NCBI RefSeq assembly: GCF_024171865.1
Contig: NZ_JAMTCN010000001.1
Span: 1 to 64,000, forward strand
Source of the DNA: Prauserella aidingensis
GTDB lineage: Bacteria; Actinomycetota; Actinomycetes; Mycobacteriales; Pseudonocardiaceae
DNA: 64,000 bases
Reading direction: 5' to 3'
The notes under the pieces were generated by a model. The model made no database searches and was not told the origin of the DNA. It was given only the letters and a program-made list of their open reading frames with translations. Positions 23,872 through 56,678 of this stretch are shown here, piece by piece. Each line of letters starts with the position of its first letter. Position 1 is the first letter of the stretch. The position numbers and the translations under genes are program-made.

Positions 23872-23885
23872 TGAGCGGTTGCTTA
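23872..23885. promoter_or_regulatory. TetR operator candidate, TRAGC-N4-GCTYA copy 1
   Basis: TGAGC-GGTT-GCTTA, a 14-base imperfect palindrome shared with two other sites in this block (24617-24630 and 32619-32632). It lies about 125 bases upstream of the cytosine deaminase start and beyond the 3' end of the TetR gene, and overlaps a TAGTAT hexamer on the plus strand. Confidence 0.5.
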
Positions 23886-23967: not shown

Positions 23968-24606
23968 TCAGGCCCCGTCCCCGGTCGTGGCGCCGAGCAT
24001 GCGCAGGACGAGTTCGCCGTACTCGCGGGCGAGCTCCTCCGGGCCGAGGCGCGTCCGGTCGGTGTACCACCGCGCGACGTCCACACCCAGCGACAGCACC
24101 GCGCGTGCCGCCGTGTGCGGGTCGCCGACGGTGAACAGCCCGGCCGCGACGCCGCGTTCGACCACGTCGCGCACCAGTCGTTCGATGTCCCGGCGCAGGC
24201 TCGCCACGACGGCGTACTCCTGTTCCGGTAGCGCCTCCAGCTCGTACTGCACCACGCGCGCGATCGTGTGCCGCCGCGCGTGCCACGCCGTGAACCGCTC
24301 GACGAGATCGCGGATCGCCGCAGCCGGGTCCTCGGCCTCGGCGACGGCCTGCTGCGTCAACGACAGCACCTGCTCGTGGCCGCTCCGGCTGATCGCGAAC
24401 AACAGCGCCGCCTTCGACGGGAAGTGGACGTACAGCGCCGCGGGGCTCATCCCCGCCGTCGCCGCGATGTCCCGCGTCGTGGTGGCGTGGTATCCGCGCT
24501 GTGCGAACGACTCGACACCGGCGAGCATCAGCCGGCGCGCCGCGTCCGGTTGCACTTCCGGCCACAGGTCGGCCGGCTGCGGGCCGGCGGACGGGATCCC
24601 AGACAT
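23968..24606 (-). CDS. TetR-family transcriptional regulator
   Basis: 212 residues. HTH TTTRDIAATAGMSPAALYVHF at about 42-62, then an all-helical ligand domain (ERFTAWHARRHTIARVVQYE) of the type found in acyl-CoA-responsive TetR proteins. It is divergent from a pair of SDR genes with a TRAGC-N4-GCTYA palindrome 11 bases before its start, so it probably represses itself, the SDR pair and the distant SDR-MaoC-kinase-dehydrogenase operon that carries the same site. Confidence 0.87.
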   Translation of the reverse strand: MSGIPSAGPQPADLWPEVQPDAARRLMLAGVESFAQRGYHATTTRDIAATAGMSPAALYVHFPSKAALLFAISRSGHEQVLSLTQQAVAEAEDPAAAIRDLVERFTAWHARRHTIARVVQYELEALPEQEYAVVASLRRDIERLVRDVVERGVAAGLFTVGDPHTAARAVLSLGVDVARWYTDRTRLGPEELAREYGELVLRMLGATTGDGA

Positions 24607-24616
24607 GTCAGCAGTG

Positions 24617-24630
24617 TAAGCGAGCGCTCA
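24617..24630. promoter_or_regulatory. TetR operator candidate, TRAGC-N4-GCTYA copy 2
   Basis: TAAGC-GAGC-GCTCA in the 46-base gap between the divergent TetR and SDR genes. The position, over both promoters, is typical for an autoregulating TetR repressor. Confidence 0.65.
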
Positions 24631-24652: not shown

Positions 24653-25423
24653 ATGACGAGCACCGCAGGGGCCGGCGATCTCACCGGAACCGTCGCCGTG
24701 GTGACGGGTGCGAGCAGGGGCATCGGCCTCGGCATCGCACAGGATCTGGTCGGCCGCGGCGCGAAGGTGTGCATCACCGCGCGCAAACCCGACCCGCTGG
24801 CCGAGGCGGTGACGCAGCTCGGCGGTGACGACGTCGCGCTCGGCGTGCCGGGCAGGGCCGACGACCCCGAGCACCGCCAGGACACGGTGGACCGGACCAT
24901 GGAGAAGTTCGGCCGCATCGACTACCTGGTCAACAACACGGGCATCAACCCGCACTTCGGCTCGCTGCTGGACTGCGACGACGAGGCCGCGGCGAAGATC
25001 TTCCAGGTCAACGTCCTCTCCCCACTGGCGTGGACCCGCGCGGTGCGGGACGCATGGATGGGCGAACACGGCGGCTCGATCGTCAACGTCGCCTCGGTGG
25101 CGGGCATCCGCAACTCGCCGGGCATCGGCATGTACGGCGTGAGCAAGGCCGCGGTCATCCGCGCGACCTCCGAACTCGCCGGGGAACTGGGCCCCAAGAT
25201 CCGCGTCAACTGCGTGGCCCCCGCGATCGTGAAGACCCAGTTCGCCACCCAGCTCTACGAGGGCAGGGAGGCCGAGGTCGCCTCGTCGTACCCGCTCAAG
25301 CGCCTCGGAGTGCCGTCCGACATCGCCGGCGCGGTGACGTTCCTGCTGTCCGACCAGGCCGCATGGCTGACCGGCCAGACGCTCGTGCTGGACGGCGGCG
25401 TCACGCTCGGCGGTGGCCTGTGA
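24653..25423 (+). CDS. Short-chain dehydrogenase/reductase (FabG-like)
   Basis: 256 residues, classical SDR. Cofactor loop TGASRGIGLG, NNTGIN in place of NNAG, catalytic Ser in VNVASVAG and YGVSK (Tyr-x-x-x-Lys). A basic residue after the second strand (TARKP) favours NADPH. ATG 24653 follows GGAG at nine bases. Its stop overlaps the next SDR gene (GTGA). Expected substrate: a 3-hydroxy- or 3-oxoacyl-CoA or related alcohol. Confidence 0.88.
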   Translation: MTSTAGAGDLTGTVAVVTGASRGIGLGIAQDLVGRGAKVCITARKPDPLAEAVTQLGGDDVALGVPGRADDPEHRQDTVDRTMEKFGRIDYLVNNTGINPHFGSLLDCDDEAAAKIFQVNVLSPLAWTRAVRDAWMGEHGGSIVNVASVAGIRNSPGIGMYGVSKAAVIRATSELAGELGPKIRVNCVAPAIVKTQFATQLYEGREAEVASSYPLKRLGVPSDIAGAVTFLLSDQAAWLTGQTLVLDGGVTLGGGL

Positions 25424-26327: not shown

Positions 26328-26648
26328 ATGAGCCACGAACACGTCGTCGTCGTGACCACCACCGATTCGGAGGACGCGGCCCGCACTCTGGCCGCCGCGG
26401 CCGTCGAGGAGCGACTCGGCGCCTGCGCGCAGATCGTCGGCCCCATCACGAGCGTGTACCGCTGGGAGGGCGCCATCGAGACCGACACCGAATGGCGCGT
26501 CGAGGTCAAGACCGCCGCCGACCGCGCCGACAGCCTCGTCGCACTGCTCACCGAACGGCACACCTACGACGTGCCCGAGGTGATCGTCACGCCCGTCACC
26601 GGCGGACACGCGGACTACCTGTCCTGGCTGGTCGACGAGACCCGCTGA
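26328..26648 (+). CDS. cutA: CutA1 family divalent-cation tolerance protein
   Basis: 106 residues, the normal CutA1 length. Conserved ACAQIVGPITSVYRWEGAI and TYDVPEVIVTPVTGG match the trimeric CutA1 fold. Linked in E. coli to copper tolerance, though its general role is unsettled. A TAGGGT hexamer six bases before the ATG suggests a leaderless transcript separate from the SDR operon. Confidence 0.92.
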   Translation: MSHEHVVVVTTTDSEDAARTLAAAAVEERLGACAQIVGPITSVYRWEGAIETDTEWRVEVKTAADRADSLVALLTERHTYDVPEVIVTPVTGGHADYLSWLVDETR

Positions 26649-26733: not shown

Positions 26734-27852
26734 TCACGCGGGCAGGTCCACGAGCTCGCCCAGCGCCGCCCGGTGCCTGCCCGGAGCGCCGAACGCGACC
26801 TGACTCGCCTTGGCCCGCTTGAGGTACAGGTGCGCCGGGTGCTCCCACGTCATGCCGATGCCGCCGTGGAGCTGGACACACTCCTCGGCCGCGTGCACGG
26901 CCGTCTCCGCGCAGTACGACTGGGCCAGCGCCACCGCGACCGGAGCGTCGGCGTCGCCGCGTGCGAGGGTGTCCGCGGCGTACCGGGCGGCCGCCCGCGC
27001 GCCGACCAGTTCGAGCCACAGGTCGGACAGCCGGTGTTTGAGTGCCTGGAACGAGCCGACCGGCCTGCCGAACTGGTACCGGTTCTTCAGGTACTCCACC
27101 GTCTCGTCGAGACACCACTGCGCGAGGCCGAGCTGTTCCGACGCGAGCAGTCCGGCCCCGGTCAGCAGGGCGCCCTCCAGAGCGCCGGGGGCTCGGTCCG
27201 GACCGGCCAGCCGGGTGGCGGCGGCACCGCGGAACGACACGTCGGCGATGCGGCGGGTCAGGTCGAACGACACCGGTGCGGACACCTCGGCGGCGGACGC
27301 GTCGACGGCGTACAGCCCGGGGCCGTCCGGGCCCGTGGCCGGGACGACGAACACGTCCGCCACCGTGCCGTCGGCGACGGACGTGACCGTGCCGTCGAGC
27401 GTGCCGTCGGCCGTGGCCGTGACGTCGCGGGGGAACGCGGCGTCGGTCATGGTCGACAGCGGGACGGCGAGCGCGCCGACGGCCTCACCGCCGGCGAGCC
27501 TGCGCAACGGATCCGCGACCTCGGCCGCTGCCGTGTCGCAGCCGAGCAGCGCCGACGTGGCCAGCACGGCACTGCCGAGGAACGGCACCGGTGCGACCGC
27601 GCGGCCGAGTTCTTCGAGGACGAGGGCCACCTCACGGGCCGAGGCGCCCTGTCCGCCGAGCTCCTCCGGCACCGCGAGCCCGGCCGTGCCGAGGTCGCGG
27701 GCGAGGGTGCGCCACAGCTCCCGGTCGCAGGGCTCGTCGCTCTCCACTCGGGCCAGCAGGGTCTCGGGTGCGCACCGGTCGGTGAGCAGGTCGCGCACGC
27801 TGGCGCGCAGATCGGTCTCGACGTCCGAGTAGAGCAGGTCCGCGTTGGTCAT
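26734..27852 (-). CDS. Acyl-CoA dehydrogenase, non-catalytic-type subunit
   Basis: 372 residues. The fold is recognisable (GLAVPEELGGQGASAREVAL, LKNRYQFGRPVGSFQALKH, VQLHGGIGMTWEHPAHLYL) but the FAD/substrate loop after the middle domain is poorly conserved (LSTMTDAAF) and the C-terminal glutamate region reads ASQVAFGAPG, without Glu. This resembles the weaker subunit of mycobacterial alpha2-beta2 acyl-CoA dehydrogenases of sterol catabolism. Its ATG overlaps the stop of the next dehydrogenase by four bases, so it is likely that gene's partner. Last gene of the operon. Confidence 0.85.
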   Translation of the reverse strand: MTNADLLYSDVETDLRASVRDLLTDRCAPETLLARVESDEPCDRELWRTLARDLGTAGLAVPEELGGQGASAREVALVLEELGRAVAPVPFLGSAVLATSALLGCDTAAAEVADPLRRLAGGEAVGALAVPLSTMTDAAFPRDVTATADGTLDGTVTSVADGTVADVFVVPATGPDGPGLYAVDASAAEVSAPVSFDLTRRIADVSFRGAAATRLAGPDRAPGALEGALLTGAGLLASEQLGLAQWCLDETVEYLKNRYQFGRPVGSFQALKHRLSDLWLELVGARAAARYAADTLARGDADAPVAVALAQSYCAETAVHAAEECVQLHGGIGMTWEHPAHLYLKRAKASQVAFGAPGRHRAALGELVDLPA

Positions 27853-29051
27853 CGGGGCAGGTCCTTCCAGGCGACGTCCTTGTCCGTGCGCGGTTCCGAC
27901 GGCAGTCCCAGCACGCGCTCGGCGATGATGTTGCGGAGCACCTCGGAGGTGCCGCCCTCGATCGAATTGCCCTTGCTGCGCAGGTACCGGTAGCCGGCCT
28001 CACGTCCGGTGAAGTCGACGAGCTCCGGCCTGCGCATCGACCAGTCGTCGTAGCGCAGCGCGTCCTCGTCGAGGATCTCCAGCTCGAGCGCGGCGAGGCG
28101 TTGCGCCACGGTCGCGAACGCCAGCTTCATGCCCGACCCCTCCGGCCCGGGCTGGCCCACGGCCAGCTGCTGGCGCAGCCTGCTGCCCGCGAGCCGGAAC
28201 GCCTCCGCCTCGGCCCACAGTTGCAGTAGCCGGTCGCGCAACTCCGGTGTGCGCAGTTCGGGCCGGTTGCGCCAGGTCTCGGCGACCTTGCCGACCATGC
28301 CGCCTTCCCGGGGCTGGGCGTTGCCGCCGATCGCGACGCGTTCGTTCATCAGCGTCGTCTGCGCGACCTGCCAGCCCGCGCCGACCTCGCCGAGCCGCTG
28401 GGCGTCCGGAATCCGCGCGTCGGTCAGGAACACCTCGTTGAACTCGGCCTCGCCGGTGATCTGCCGGAGTGGTCGCACCTCGACACCGGGCTGGGTCATG
28501 TCCAGCACGAAGTAGGTCATGCCCCGGTGTTTCGGCACGTCCGGATCGGTGCGCGTGACGAGGATGGCCCACTGGGCGGTGTGCGCACTGGAGGTCCACA
28601 CCTTCTGCCCGTTGACGACCCAGCTGTCCCCGTCCCGGACGGCCCGCGTGGCCAGTGCGGCGAGGTCGGAGCCGGCACCCGGTTCGGAGAACAGCTGGCA
28701 CCACACCTCCTCGCCGGTCCACAACGGACGGAGCAGGCGCTTCTTCAGCTCCTCGCTGCCGAACTTCAGGATCGTGGGCGCGGCCATGCCGAGTCCGATC
28801 CCGATGCGGCGCGGGTTGTTGTCCGGCGCACCGGCGGCGGCGAACTCGGCGTCCACGACGGACTGCAGCTCCCGGGGCGCGTCGAGCCCGCCGAGGCCGA
28901 CGGGGAAGTGCACCCAGGCCAGGCCCGCGTCGAACCGGGCACGCAGGAAGTCGAGCCGGTCGGTCGTGTCCGGGTCGTGGGCGGCGAGGACGTCGGCGAC
29001 GCGGGCGCGCAGGCCCTCGGCGTCGAGCCCCTTGTCGGACGTCGTCGTCAT
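27849..29051 (-). CDS. Acyl-CoA dehydrogenase, catalytic-type subunit
   Basis: 400 residues. FAD/substrate loop CQLFSEPGAGSDLA, LTDARIPDAQRLGEVGAGW and the C-terminal SIEGGTSEVLRNIIAERVLG, which retains a Glu at the catalytic-base position. Together with the overlapping downstream gene it looks like an alpha-beta FadE pair. Start ATG 29051 overlaps the previous stop (TGATG); GTG 29054 is equally possible. Confidence 0.88.
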   Translation of the reverse strand: MTTTSDKGLDAEGLRARVADVLAAHDPDTTDRLDFLRARFDAGLAWVHFPVGLGGLDAPRELQSVVDAEFAAAGAPDNNPRRIGIGLGMAAPTILKFGSEELKKRLLRPLWTGEEVWCQLFSEPGAGSDLAALATRAVRDGDSWVVNGQKVWTSSAHTAQWAILVTRTDPDVPKHRGMTYFVLDMTQPGVEVRPLRQITGEAEFNEVFLTDARIPDAQRLGEVGAGWQVAQTTLMNERVAIGGNAQPREGGMVGKVAETWRNRPELRTPELRDRLLQLWAEAEAFRLAGSRLRQQLAVGQPGPEGSGMKLAFATVAQRLAALELEILDEDALRYDDWSMRRPELVDFTGREAGYRYLRSKGNSIEGGTSEVLRNIIAERVLGLPSEPRTDKDVAWKDLPR

Positions 29052-30259
29052 CACAGGTACCTCTTCAGTTCTCTGCGGGCGAGGGATCGTTTGTGCGCTT
29101 CGTCGGGGCCGTCGGCCAGCCGGAGCGTGCGGGCCGAGGCCCACAACCCGGCGAGCGGGAAGTCCTGGCTCACGCCGCCCGCTCCGTGCAACTGGATCGC
29201 CTTGTCCAGAATGGATTCGACGGCCCGTGGTGTGGCGATCTTGATGGCCTGGATCTCCGTGTGGGCACCCTTGTTGCCCGCCGTGTCCATGAGCCACGCC
29301 GTCTTCAGCACCAGCAGGCGCAGCGACTCGATGGTGACGCGGGACTCGGCGATCCACTCCTGCACGACACCCTGGTTCGCCAGCGGGGAGCCGAACGCCT
29401 CACGGCCGACCGCGCGGGTGCACATGAGTTCCACAGCGCGTTCGGCCATGCCGAGCAGCCGCATGCAGTGGTGGATGCGTCCCGGACCCAGGCGTGCTTG
29501 GGCGATGGCGAACCCGCCGCCCTCCTCGCCGATGAGGTTCTCCGCCGGCACGCGCACGTCCTCGAAGACCACCTCGGCGTGCCCGCCGCTGGCGCTGTCG
29601 TCGTAGCCGAACACCTGCATGCCGCGCTTGACGTGCACTCCCGGGGTGTCGCGCGGGACGAGGATCATGCTCTGCTGGCGGTGCGGCTCGGCGTCCGGAT
29701 CGATCTTGCCCATCACGATGAAGACGCGGCAGTTCGGATTCATCGCCCCGGAGATGAACCACTTCCGTCCGTTGAGGACGTAGGTGTCGCCGTCCCGCTC
29801 GATGCGGGTGGCGATGTTGCGGGCGTCGGAGGAGGCCACGTCCGGTTCGGTCATCGCGAACGCCGACCGGATCGACCCGTCCAGCAACGGCTCCAGCCAC
29901 GTGCGCTGCTGCTCGGCGGAGCCGAACATGTGCAGGACTTCCATGTTGCCGGTGTCGGGGGCCGCGCAGTTCAGCGCGGCCGGAGCCAGTTCGGGACTGC
30001 GGCCGGTGATCTCCGCGAGCGGCGCGTACTGCAGATTCGTCAGGCCGCCGCCGTCCGAACCGGGGAGGAAGAAGTTCCACAGGCCGCGGTTGCGTGCCTC
30101 GGCCTTAAGCTCCTCGACGACGGGTGGTACCGACCACGGATCGCTGCGCTCGGCGAGCTGCTCGTGGAACACCGGCTCGGCCGGGTACACGTGGGAGTCC
30201 ATGAACTCCCGCAGCCGCCCGCTGAGCTCCTCGGTGGTGCTGTCGACGGCGAAGTCCAT
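29051..30259 (-). CDS. ACAD10/11-like (LvaC-like) acyl-CoA dehydrogenase
   Basis: 402 residues. Sequence landmarks are those of the ACAD10/ACAD11 dehydrogenase domain: FAMTEPDVASSDA at 134-146, RIHHCMRLLGMAERA and the C-terminal LRLADGPDEAHKRS in place of the usual YEGT. In mammals and in Pseudomonas LvaC such domains act on 4-phosphoacyl-CoA made by a linked APH-type kinase, eliminating phosphate (established for those proteins). Here the kinase gene is immediately upstream and overlaps by one base. The reaction is inferred from family and context. Confidence 0.85.
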   Translation of the reverse strand: MDFAVDSTTEELSGRLREFMDSHVYPAEPVFHEQLAERSDPWSVPPVVEELKAEARNRGLWNFFLPGSDGGGLTNLQYAPLAEITGRSPELAPAALNCAAPDTGNMEVLHMFGSAEQQRTWLEPLLDGSIRSAFAMTEPDVASSDARNIATRIERDGDTYVLNGRKWFISGAMNPNCRVFIVMGKIDPDAEPHRQQSMILVPRDTPGVHVKRGMQVFGYDDSASGGHAEVVFEDVRVPAENLIGEEGGGFAIAQARLGPGRIHHCMRLLGMAERAVELMCTRAVGREAFGSPLANQGVVQEWIAESRVTIESLRLLVLKTAWLMDTAGNKGAHTEIQAIKIATPRAVESILDKAIQLHGAGGVSQDFPLAGLWASARTLRLADGPDEAHKRSLARRELKRYL

Positions 30260-31281
30260 CAGTTCCCTTTCAGTGCGGAGTTGCCGAGCGCGACGAGCGG
30301 GGCGACACCGGCGCCGATGCGGTCGAATCCCTCGCCGACGGTCTGTCCGTGGCTGTAGCGGTAGTAGATGCCCTCGAGGATCACCGCGAGCTTGAACAGC
30401 GCGAATCCCAGGTACCAGCCCAGGTCGGAGACGTCGCGTCCGGACGCGCGTGCGTAGGCGTCGGCGATCTCGTCGGGCGACGGGTGCCCCGGTGCCGCAC
30501 CGACATCGCTGACCGTGTCGAGGTCGAGCGTGTGCAGCTGCGAGTACGCCAGCAACAGCGCCAGGTCGGTGAGCGGGTCGCCGAGCGTCGACATCTCCCA
30601 GTCGAGCACCGCGTTGATGCGGTCGTCGGCTCCCACCAGCACGTTGTCCAGGCGGTAGTCGCCGTGCACGATCGACGGCGCGGGCGAGGTGGGAATCCGG
30701 GCCGCGAGGCGTTCGTGGAGCTCGTCAATGCCCGGCACGTCCCGGCTGCGCGACGCGGCCAGCTGTTTCGACCACCGCCGGAGCTGGCGTTCCAGGAACC
30801 CGTCGGGTTTGCCGAAATCGCCGAGGCCGACGGACTGCGGGTCGACGGCGTGCAGCTCCACGAGGGTGTCGACCAGCCGGTCGGTGATCGCCCGCGTGCG
30901 CTCCTCACCCCGTGGCCGCAGCTGCTCGGCGGTCCGCAACGGGGAGCCCTCGACGAAGTCCATGACGTAGAACTGTGCGCCGAGGACGTCGTCGTCGCTG
31001 CACAGCACGCGGGCTCGGGGGACCGGCACCGGGGTGCCGTGCAGCCCGCTGATGACCCGGTACTCGCGGGTCATGTCGTGCGCCGTCGGCAGCACGTGCC
31101 CGAGCGGCGGGCGCCGCAGCACCAGTCGCTGCGCGCCGTCGTCGACGATGTAGGTGAGATTCGACCGGCCGCCTTCGACCAGTCGGGCCGTCAGCGGACC
31201 GGTGACCGCACCGGGCAGCTCCCGGTCCAGGTACGTGCGCAGGCGCGCCAGGTCCACGCCGGGGGGATCTGCGTCGCTCAC
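30259..31281 (-). CDS. APH-fold kinase, LvaA / ACAD10-11 kinase-domain type
   Basis: 340 residues. Kinase-like core with EGGRSNLTYIV (36-46), LRRPPLGHVLPTAHDMTREY, catalytic loop HGDYRLDN (206-213) and metal-binding DWE (227-229); all key residues are present, so an active phosphotransferase is expected. The RRPPLG...LPTAHDM...EYRV pattern separates this group from antibiotic kinases and is shared with the APH domain of ACAD10/11. Predicted role: phosphorylating a 4-hydroxyacyl-CoA for the next enzyme. GTG 31281 has AAGGAGG five bases upstream; GTG 31350 overlapping the MaoC stop is an alternative. Confidence 0.82.
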   Translation of the reverse strand: MSDADPPGVDLARLRTYLDRELPGAVTGPLTARLVEGGRSNLTYIVDDGAQRLVLRRPPLGHVLPTAHDMTREYRVISGLHGTPVPVPRARVLCSDDDVLGAQFYVMDFVEGSPLRTAEQLRPRGEERTRAITDRLVDTLVELHAVDPQSVGLGDFGKPDGFLERQLRRWSKQLAASRSRDVPGIDELHERLAARIPTSPAPSIVHGDYRLDNVLVGADDRINAVLDWEMSTLGDPLTDLALLLAYSQLHTLDLDTVSDVGAAPGHPSPDEIADAYARASGRDVSDLGWYLGFALFKLAVILEGIYYRYSHGQTVGEGFDRIGAGVAPLVALGNSALKGN

Positions 31282-31346: not shown

Positions 31347-31823
31347 TCACGGGACCAGCACGGTGACCATCTCGGCGATGCAGGCGGGCTTGGCCTCACC
31401 CTCGATCTCGAGGGTCCACCGGACGACCGCCTGCGTCCCTTGCTTGCCGGGGGCGGCCTCGGCAAGCTCGGCGCTCCCGCGGATCCGCTGGCCGACCTTC
31501 ACCGGTTGCGGGAACCGCACCTTGTTCAGCCCGTAGTTGATCCCCATGCTCAGCCCGTCCACCCGGTAGACGTCCTTGGCCAGTCGTGGGATCAGCGACA
31601 GCGTGAGGAAACCGTGGGCGATCGGCGCGCCGAACGGGCCCGTCGCGGCACGGTCGGGGTCGACGTGGATCCACTGGTGGTCGAGCGTCGCGTCGGCGAA
31701 CAGGTCGATCTGGTCCTGGGTGACGGTGTGCCACGCGCTGCTGCCGAGCTGCTCCCCGACGGCGGCGGTGAAGCTGTCCAGGTCGGGGAAGACGCGGGCA
31801 GGTTCGGACTCGGTCGTACTCAC
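31347..31823 (-). CDS. MaoC-family (R)-specific enoyl-CoA hydratase
   Basis: 158 residues, single hot-dog domain. Hydratase-2 motif at 43-66: ADATLDHQWIHVDPDRAA and GPFGAPIAHGFLTLSL, with Asp48 and His53 as catalytic pair. It should hydrate a trans-2-enoyl-CoA to the (R)-3-hydroxyacyl-CoA. GTG start overlaps the SDR stop by four bases. Confidence 0.9.
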   Translation of the reverse strand: MSTTESEPARVFPDLDSFTAAVGEQLGSSAWHTVTQDQIDLFADATLDHQWIHVDPDRAATGPFGAPIAHGFLTLSLIPRLAKDVYRVDGLSMGINYGLNKVRFPQPVKVGQRIRGSAELAEAAPGKQGTQAVVRWTLEIEGEAKPACIAEMVTVLVP

Positions 31824-32599
31824 GCCTTCGGCCCTCCCGCGACGTAGATGACCTGACCGGACACGAATCCGGCACCGTCGCTGACGAGGAACGACACCGT
31901 GTGGGCGATGTCCTCCGGCTCGCCGACCCGGCGCACCGGGATCTCCTTCGCCGCCGCGTCCTTGAAGTCCTCGAACCCCATACCCACCCGCTCGGCGGTC
32001 GCCGCGGTCATGTCGGTCGCGATGAAACCGGGCGCGATGGCGTTGGCGGTGACGCCGAACTTGCCGAGTTCGACGGCCAGCGTCTTGGTGAAGCCCTGCA
32101 ACCCGGCCTTCGCCGTCGAGTAGTTCGCCTGGCCGCGGTTGCCGAGCGCGGAGGTGCTCGACAGGCTGACGATCCGGCCCCAGCCCTGCTCGGTCATGTG
32201 CTTCTGCACCGCACGTGACATCAGGAACGCACCGCGCAGGTGGACGCCCATGACCGCATCCCAATCGGACTCGGACATCTTGAACAGCAGGTTGTCGCGC
32301 GTGATGCCGGCGTTGTTCACGAGCACGGTCGGCGGCCCGAGTGCGTCGGCCACCTCGCCGACCACGCGCTCCACCTCCTCGGCGTCGCTGATGTCCGCGG
32401 CCAGGCCGACCGCCGTACCGCCGGTCGCGGTGATCGCGTCAGCGCCCGCCTTGGCGCCCGCTTCGTCGAGATCGATCAGCCCGACGGCGAATCCGTCCTC
32501 GGCGAGTCGCCGGGCGACGGCGGCGCCGATACCGCGGCCCGCGCCGGTGACGACGGCGACGCGGGACGGTGACTCCGGAACAGGGTTGTCCACCGACAC
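31820..32599 (-). CDS. SDR, FabG-like 3-oxoacyl reductase/3-hydroxyacyl dehydrogenase
   Basis: 259 residues. TGAGRGIGAA cofactor loop, acidic DLDE after the second strand (NAD preferred), NNAGIT, catalytic Ser in VSLSSTSA and YSTAK. GTG 32599 is preceded at six bases by AGGAGG. First gene of a six-gene operon (SDR, MaoC, kinase, three dehydrogenases) in which most junctions overlap. Operator copy 3 lies 20 bases upstream. Confidence 0.9.
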   Translation of the reverse strand: MSVDNPVPESPSRVAVVTGAGRGIGAAVARRLAEDGFAVGLIDLDEAGAKAGADAITATGGTAVGLAADISDAEEVERVVGEVADALGPPTVLVNNAGITRDNLLFKMSESDWDAVMGVHLRGAFLMSRAVQKHMTEQGWGRIVSLSSTSALGNRGQANYSTAKAGLQGFTKTLAVELGKFGVTANAIAPGFIATDMTAATAERVGMGFEDFKDAAAKEIPVRRVGEPEDIAHTVSFLVSDGAGFVSGQVIYVAGGPKA

Positions 32600-32618
32600 G
32601 AAGGTCCTCCTCATCGAG

Positions 32619-32632
32619 TAAGCGTGCGCTTA
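32619..32632. promoter_or_regulatory. TetR operator candidate, TRAGC-N4-GCTYA copy 3
   Basis: TAAGC-GTGC-GCTTA, the most symmetric of three copies, directly upstream of the SDR-led operon. Matches the sites beside the TetR gene 8 kb away. Confidence 0.65.
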
Positions 32633-42206: not shown

Positions 42207-42298
42207 GGAGGCGCTTCCGGCCTGGTGACCGGCCCGGTCTTCAACACCGTGGAACGGCAGACACTGTCGTTGGCGGGTTCGATTCCCGTTCGCCTCCG
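42207..42298 (+). tRNA. selC: tRNA-Sec (anticodon TCA)
   Basis: 92 nt. Acceptor GGAGGCG (42207-42213) pairs with CGCCTCC (42291-42297), G discriminator, no encoded CCA. The anticodon loop CTTCAAC carries TCA. A long variable arm (ACGGCAG/CTGTCGT) and a T arm that I count as six pairs give the 13-pair acceptor-plus-T stack typical of tRNA-Sec. It lies between selD and selA, which supports the call. Confidence 0.93.
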
Positions 42299-42322
42299 CG
42301 AGGACCGGTGCGGGGGTGCGTC

Positions 42323-55741: not shown

Positions 55742-55825
55742 GTCCGAGTGGCGGAATGGCAGACGCGCTAGCTTGAGGTGCTAGTGCCCGTAAAGGGCGT
55801 GGGGGTTCAAGTCCCCCCTCGGACA
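55742..55825 (+). tRNA. tRNA-Leu (anticodon GAG), copy 1
   Basis: 84 nt. Acceptor GTCCGAG/CTCGGAC, anticodon loop TTGAGGT with GAG, class II variable arm GTGCCCGTAAAGGGCGT, A discriminator, no encoded CCA. A TACTCT hexamer in TCCGCTACTCT precedes it. Confidence 0.95.
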
Positions 55826-55886
55826 CAGTGCGAGAAGCGACGTGAGAGCCGCACCGCGCGAGCGATGCGATCCTCCTGACATCGGG

Positions 55887-56587: not shown

Positions 56588-56671
56588 GTCCGAGTGGCGG
56601 AATGGCAGACGCGCTAGCTTGAGGTGCTAGTGCCCGTAACGGGCGTGGGGGTTCAAGTCCCCCCTCGGACA
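56588..56671 (+). tRNA. tRNA-Leu (anticodon GAG), copy 2
   Basis: 84 nt, identical to copy 1 except one base in the variable arm (AACGGG instead of AAAGGG, which makes the arm a better stem). Same TCCGCTACTCT promoter element upstream. Confidence 0.95.
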
Positions 56672-56678
56672 CGATCGA

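Follow-up and report, generated by a model that had tools for sequence, protein, structure and literature searches.

The window analyzed here is a 64 kb stretch of the 5.6 Mb draft genome of Prauserella aidingensis, and it contains six coupled minus-strand genes that encode, in order, a FabG-like short-chain dehydrogenase/reductase (SDR), a MaoC-type hydratase, a kinase, an ACAD11-type dehydrogenase, and the acyl-CoA dehydrogenase subunits FadE-alpha and FadE-beta (Table 1). We consider it likely that the kinase and the ACAD11-type dehydrogenase constitute a split module of the LvaA/LvaC and ACAD10/11 type that acts on 4-hydroxyacyl-coenzyme A (CoA) within a beta-oxidation operon. A first-pass annotation had predicted a split ACAD10/11-like module from the sequence, and the top match to ACAD11, five active-site residues, and the position of the kinase in a phylogenetic tree argue for that prediction. 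Its description of the locus also held: both open reading frames and the motifs HGDYRLDN, DWE, MTEPDVASSDA, and ADGPDEAH are present in the translations, and the SDR, the MaoC hydratase, and a further FadE pair are joined to the module. That the pair is real rather than fortuitous is upheld by the Pfam E-values, the ACAD11 matches, and the adjacency of the two genes in relatives.

In the proposed mechanism, the kinase would phosphorylate the C4 hydroxyl of a 4-hydroxyacyl-CoA, and the ACAD11-type dehydrogenase would expel the phosphate to yield a 2-enoyl-CoA without net oxidation. MaoC would hydrate this product to (3R)-3-hydroxyacyl-CoA, which the FabG-like SDR would oxidize to a 3-ketoacyl-CoA ready for thiolysis, and the FadE pair would serve as a heteromeric acyl-CoA dehydrogenase on the same carbon chain. 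A plus-strand pair of SDRs that points toward the operon (convergent) may interconvert 4-keto and 4-hydroxy forms.

Sequence relationships of the dehydrogenase and kinase

Pfam returned four Acyl-CoA_dh families for the dehydrogenase, and its best solved match was ACAD11 (E 1.6e-135), with 55% identity over the aligned part. ACAD11 structures 8v3u, 8v3v, and 2wbi, together with 4hr3, all matched with E <= 8.2e-134, while the next match reached only 2.7e-43. Residues R626, H634, and R637 of ACAD11 are reported to touch the 4-phosphate in a modelled complex, with R631 described as conserved family-wide and D753 as the base (PMC12440821); in our alignment, the five dehydrogenase residues listed in Table 1 are the equivalents of R626, R631, H634, R637, and D753, respectively. 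The last of these is a catalytic aspartate where glutamate is usual, which is the residue looked for in an ACAD10/11- or LvaC-type enzyme. The full set (RRHRD) was present in all 32 rows of a hand-chosen ACAD11-type alignment comprising the window, 29 loci from relatives, ACAD11, and 4hr3. The four other FadEs of the window show QRLQG, GRSFP, TRING, and AALEF at these columns, the last of which is loosely aligned in them; none of the four has the full set, the general arginine being all that any of them has in common with it. These comparisons support placing the dehydrogenase with the ACAD11 type and predict phosphate elimination from a 4-phosphoacyl-CoA.

The kinase matched the Pfam family APH (E 5.1e-53), and its solved matches were 9o56 (1.4e-72), 3dxp (3.1e-58), ACAD11 (5.2e-52; 35% identity over the aligned part), Rv3168 (2.3e-14), and the 25-hydroxy steroid kinase 9fsg (1.2e-11). 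Its catalytic Asp208 aligns with D220 of ACAD11 and its DWE motif is intact, which, together with the APH fold, are the features looked for in an LvaA-type kinase. In a 39-row maximum-likelihood tree, the kinase grouped with ACAD11, 3dxp, and the kinases of other ACAD11-type loci, with support of 93 for the subclade of the window kinase, 99 for the subclade of ACAD11, 3dxp, and Burkholderia, and 67 for the node uniting both. ACAD11, 3dxp, and a homologue from Burkholderia multivorans served as the comparison sequences.

The first-pass annotation had named a grouping with antibiotic or choline kinases as the result that would speak against its prediction. Rv3168, along with five further APH proteins encoded by the P. 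aidingensis genome (five of its 22 APH-family matches), fell outside the ACAD11-type kinase group, and the kinase scored low against the APH(3') model. This partial check, made with a tree in which choline kinases and named antibiotic kinases were not represented, did not contradict the prediction. Structure prediction, which had also been proposed, gave an AlphaFold model (pLDDT 90.5, pTM 0.89) whose first fold match was 3dxp (TM 0.82), followed by Rv3168 (0.75) and the 25-hydroxy steroid kinase (0.74-0.77), with antibiotic kinases ranking lower (TM ~0.63 or less). The 50 fold matches listed included neither ACAD11 nor 9o56. From sequence, then, the kinase appears to group with the ACAD11-type kinases with moderate support.

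Conservation in relatives and layout of the locus

A genome scan of relatives yielded the loci compared here, the best 80 of 590. In 73 of these 80, the kinase and dehydrogenase genes share a strand and are separated by <200 bp. All six operon genes occur together in 22 of the 80, which bear Prauserella or Amycolatopsis titles except for one actinomycete metagenome-assembled genome (MAG). Streptomyces loci retain the kinase and dehydrogenase, with that SDR and MaoC not adjoining. The nearest named dehydrogenase among the matches listed is that of Saccharomonospora sp. CUA-673 (92%). The kinase was detected in 99 of the 120 genomes sampled from the family (E 1e-70), in 182 of 249 from the order (E 1e-80), and, with an alignment, in 118 of 296 from the phylum (E 1e-50). 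Additional kinase-dehydrogenase pairs are present in the P. aidingensis genome on contigs C27 and C11, and C39 carries a dehydrogenase without a kinase within 20 kb. A partial ACAD11-type dehydrogenase match near a contig start (L009, G000:C46:1446-1934; 56% identity, one internal TGA) is possibly a broken copy.

Both genes also occur in 12 of 16 plasmid regions, including those of Burkholderia, Azoarcus, Bosea, Deinococcus, Cytobacillus, and Natrinema; within the stretch, two regions have only the kinase (L013, L132) and two only the dehydrogenase (L101, L136). The kinase-dehydrogenase pair of a Streptomyces plasmid (L133, 6974-14583) has ketoacyl synthases, a CoA-transferase, and an AfsA-related gene a few genes away. 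A Deinococcus plasmid (L131, 1-8300) has an SDR, a MaoC, a gluconolactonase-family gene, a dehydrogenase, an SDR, and a kinase close together, the gluconolactonase family being a second lactonase-type family near a kinase-dehydrogenase pair. A HAD gene immediately precedes kinase and dehydrogenase in five loci (L054, L057, L060, L086, L129), which is the domain order of ACAD10. The four HADs that were read (L012, L013, L054, L167) show DxG in place of the usual DxD, a motif also known from active HADs. No HAD gene is present at the window locus, and matches to one relative's HAD in the P. aidingensis genome were weak (35-41%, partial) and on other contigs.

Within the operon, adjacent genes overlap by one or four bases at every junction except that between MaoC and the kinase. 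The one-base overlap of kinase and dehydrogenase claimed earlier was seen where the kinase stop and the dehydrogenase ATG have a base in common (..CTGATGGAC..). The kinase GTG at 31281 is preceded by AAGGAGG, and a second possible GTG at 31350 overlaps the MaoC stop. A promoter and terminator scan found nothing.

Table 1. Features of the six-gene operon and its partner genes in the window.
Feature	Position	Strand	Remarks
Palindrome TAAGCGTGCGCTTA, candidate operator	32619..32632	.	Exact match immediately upstream of operon
FabG-like SDR, predicted (3R)-hydroxyacyl-CoA dehydrogenase	31820..32614	-	Start ATG 32614 or GTG 32599 behind AGGAGG
MaoC-type enoyl-CoA hydratase	31347..31823	-	GTG start, 4 bp overlap with SDR stop
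APH-fold kinase, predicted 4-hydroxyacyl-CoA kinase	30259..31281	-	Catalytic Asp208, codon 30660-30658
ACAD11-type dehydrogenase, predicted phosphate-eliminating	29051..30259	-	R256, R261, H264, R267, D383
FadE alpha-type subunit	27849..29051	-	ATG shares 1 bp with dehydrogenase stop
FadE beta-type subunit	26734..27852	-	ATGA overlap with FadE-alpha
Partner-pair SDR (SDR_25k), may act at C4	25420..26214	+	Pfam
Partner-pair SDR (SDR_24k)	24653..25423	+	Pfam; best solved match DHRS4
Palindrome copy 2, one mismatch	24617..24630	.	Between TetR gene and SDR pair
TetR-type regulator, candidate repressor at both palindromes	23968..24606	-	Divergent from SDR pair

The operon SDR (Pfam adh_short_C2, 3.3e-60) has the (3R)-hydroxyacyl-CoA dehydrogenase 2et6 as its best solved match (E 5.6e-66), followed by FabG proteins, and the MaoC protein (Pfam domain, 8.4e-29) is closest to Rv0130 (2c2i, E 1.4e-52). 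These nearest relatives of the SDR and the hydratase fit work in the R series. FadE-alpha best matched Tcur3483 (6wy9, 6wy8) and chain A of 4x28, and FadE-beta best matched Tcur3481 (6wy8) and chain D of 4x28; an EGGTSE stretch of FadE-alpha was not seen by eye in FadE-beta. The pair thus resembles a heteromer-type acyl-CoA dehydrogenase, closest to the two-subunit Tcur3483/Tcur3481 and 4x28 enzymes. The partner SDRs are 63% (first gene, at 24653) and 60% (second gene, at 25420) identical to successive SDRs of a Tsukamurella kinase cluster, and a TetR homologue adjoins the SDR pair in 13 of the 80 loci as well as in L127 and L128.

The stretch separating the SDR pair from the operon was examined for a lactonase remnant; an open reading frame there, at 26328-26648 (+), resembles CutA by eye. 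Elsewhere in the window, ARAGORN predicted a selenocysteine tRNA at 42207-42299, and two tRNA-Leu(GAG) predictions lie 846 bp apart (55742-55826 and 56588-56672).

Shared palindrome, lactonase linkage, and rival readings

The palindrome TAAGCG-NN-CGCTTA at the head of the operon is the sole exact copy in the draft genome, and the window contains, besides the one-mismatch copy beside the SDR pair, a copy with two mismatches at 23872-23885. We scanned 86 sequences (the 80 loci, L012, L110, L111, L127, L128, and the window; 1.72 Mb); the region preceding the operon SDR could be assessed in 31 loci and that preceding the partner SDR in 24, with the window included and truncated loci excluded. Within 250 bp, a palindrome with no or one mismatch preceded the operon SDR in 15 of the 31 (13 exact) and the partner SDR in 20 of the 24 (12 exact). 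These two positions contain 35 of the 53 such matches, compared with 1.4 expected from mononucleotide shuffles, although the palindrome-bearing loci are not independent because they are related. Its presence at both positions links the SDR pair with the operon and points to the TetR protein as a putative regulator; the SDR pair and operon are probably co-regulated by TetR via the common palindrome. In two of eight Amycolatopsis loci (L031, L034), the palindrome (0-1 mismatch) also lies ~105 bp upstream of CoA ligase-lactonase genes; in L032 it lies ~0.8 kb upstream of them, and it was not found there in the remaining five.

Lactonase and ligase genes accompany the module in some relatives. A Tsukamurella plasmid (L012) encodes, in a single run, the SDR pair, a quinone oxidoreductase, a HAD, an SDR, MaoC, kinase, dehydrogenase, the FadE pair, a phosphotriesterase-family protein, and a CoA ligase; the best solved matches of the phosphotriesterase-family protein are 4if2 and 2vc5, which we take to be PLL-group lactonases. 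A lactonase relative lies inside the 10 kb flank in eight of the 80 loci, all Amycolatopsis. Clusters joining lactonase and kinase were found in L012, L110, L111, L127, L128, L166, and L167: in L127 and L128, which have a window-like layout, the lactonase stands behind the second SDR, in L166 it is near a more distant kinase and a ligase, and L167 unites lactonase, ligase, TetR, kinase, dehydrogenase, and SDR. In the family sample (n=120), 48 genomes have the lactonase (E 1e-60) and 44 have both lactonase and kinase. The two lie <=10 kb apart in seven of these 44 genomes, from four genera, and <=30 kb apart in ten, compared with 0.2 and 0.6 expected from random placement, an expectation that takes no account of how closely the genomes are related or of the tendency of catabolic genes to cluster.

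The first-pass annotation had suggested that the module may serve a different hydroxyacyl-CoA. In these relatives, the partner genes point to gamma-lactones and the 4-hydroxy acids derived from them as possible substrates; no lactonase or ligase linked to the operon was seen in the P. aidingensis genome. The kinase of ACAD10 is reported to favor the R form (PMC11342911), and with such a preference a redox SDR pair acting at C4 would be a sensible partner when substrates are racemic, which is speculation on our part. We tentatively propose, as a possibility to which we give limited credence, an actinomycete regulon for gamma-lactones and 4-hydroxy acids that is linked by the palindrome, in which lactonase and CoA ligase (in relatives) would feed the kinase-dehydrogenase pair and the two C4 SDRs would invert stereochemistry for an R-selective kinase.

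Several observations weigh against the 4-hydroxyacyl-CoA module or its lactone setting. The node uniting the window and ACAD11 kinases has a support of only 67, and seven of the 80 dehydrogenase loci are without an adjoining kinase (five Nonomuraea, one Streptosporangium, and one MAG, with L038 having <650 bases upstream). The likeness of the FadE pair to Tcur3483/Tcur3481 and 4x28, which we assume to be steroid (side-chain) dehydrogenases, points away from it as well. The palindrome is missing from 16 of 31 loci at the operon SDR, which is internal to a longer gene run in three of them (L012, L110, L111), and from four of 24 at the partner SDR; genome-wide, one-mismatch sites number six versus five for a control pattern, near background. 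Lactonase and kinase are not within 10 kb of each other in 37 of the 44 genomes with both. Of 17 lactonase-centered regions from the order and family samples (three additional regions, picked for known gene proximity, were left out), 14 have neither kinase nor ACAD11-type dehydrogenase within ~10 kb; the other three have the kinase (L110, L111) or an ACAD11-type dehydrogenase (L122). The P. aidingensis genome has no close copy of the lactonase: a search for the phosphotriesterase family gave one gene, only 28% identical and on another contig. Finally, a tblastn search of the 64 kb with a single ligase as query (E 1e-8, >=40% of query) gave no CoA ligase, in line with the first-pass annotation. 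Separately, four of the Nonomuraea loci (L040, L041, L053, L055) combine the dehydrogenase with a FadE pair and no adjoining kinase.

The pair might remove a hydroxyl elsewhere on the chain (e.g. C3 or C5), or act on a chain derived from a polyketide or a gamma-butyrolactone signal, and the AfsA-related gene a few genes from the pair on one Streptomyces plasmid would fit this. Phosphotriesterase-like lactonases, moreover, open other lactones as well. However, all ACAD11 residues modelled at the 4-phosphate are retained, and we judge this reading unlikely. A kinase acting on a sterol or bulky side-chain hydroxyl like the 25-hydroxy steroid kinase, in an operon whose FadE pair degrades a steroid-like side chain, would agree with the position of that enzyme directly behind 3dxp and Rv3168 among the fold matches and with the best matches of the FadE pair. 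The kinase match to 9fsg is nevertheless far weaker than those to 3dxp and ACAD11, and both the ACAD11 residue set in the dehydrogenase and the lactonase linkage in some relatives argue for the 4-hydroxyacyl-CoA module, leaving a steroid-like substrate quite improbable.

Pfam yields only generic family names, as would be expected if the dehydrogenase were of the ordinary acyl-CoA type and the APH kinase, acting on a drug or other small molecule, were an unrelated chance neighbor. Their side-by-side placement in relatives, an NCBIfam APH(3') score of 43.9 bits where the threshold is 205, the residue set, and the tree all speak against such an arrangement, to which we give very little weight. 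The identities of antibiotic kinase and ordinary FadE were set aside because of the scores, residue set, and tree.

Comparison with known systems

Mammalian ACAD10 and ACAD11 are described as combining a 4-hydroxyacyl-CoA kinase with a phosphate-eliminating dehydrogenase (PMC12440821, PMC11342911), and the window genes resemble them in both activities by homology, the catalytic Asp of the kinase, and the five dehydrogenase residues. Unlike the fused mammalian proteins, kinase and dehydrogenase are two genes here, with stop and start codons between them, and they sit among a hydratase, an SDR, and a FadE pair, with no HAD domain or gene at the locus. The 25-hydroxy steroid kinase is likewise reported to be an APH-fold enzyme that serves an ATP-dependent dehydration (PMC8449060; PDB 9fsg, 9ft5), as is predicted for the window kinase, but the latter is distant in sequence and is predicted to have another substrate.

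As in the P. putida lva operon, kinase (LvaA) and dehydrogenase (LvaC) are separate genes with the same predicted chemistry. That operon has a small protein, LvaB, beside LvaA, and a CoA ligase. In the window, by contrast, no LvaB-like gene was found beside the kinase, in agreement with the first-pass annotation, and the kinase junctions leave no room for a small gene; there is also no match to the one CoA ligase used as query, and the partners are an SDR, MaoC, and FadE proteins.

In the Rhodococcus qsd gamma-lactone pathway, the lactonase QsdA and the CoA ligase QsdC open the lactone and activate the acid, and QsdR is the TetR regulator (PMC3689677, PMC6476934, PMC6262395); the opened chain is reportedly broken down through a beta- or omega-oxidation step (PMC3689677). 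Some relatives' clusters resemble qsd in carrying a phosphotriesterase-type lactonase, and several also a CoA ligase, which is a likeness of gene content, whereas neither lactonase nor CoA ligase was found in the 64 kb window. Among the literature matches listed, no title or abstract opening linked a lactonase with LvaA- or ACAD10/11-type kinases, in a coverage that mostly excludes subscription papers. With this module, chemistry already described in Pseudomonas and mammals would reach a conserved operon, and perhaps a regulon, of actinomycetes. As a candidate for the step after QsdA and QsdC, it makes testable what happens in the rhodococcal gamma-lactone pathway once the ring is open and the acid has been activated with CoA, and the lactone regulon, if true, would be the missing lower half of that quorum-quenching pathway.

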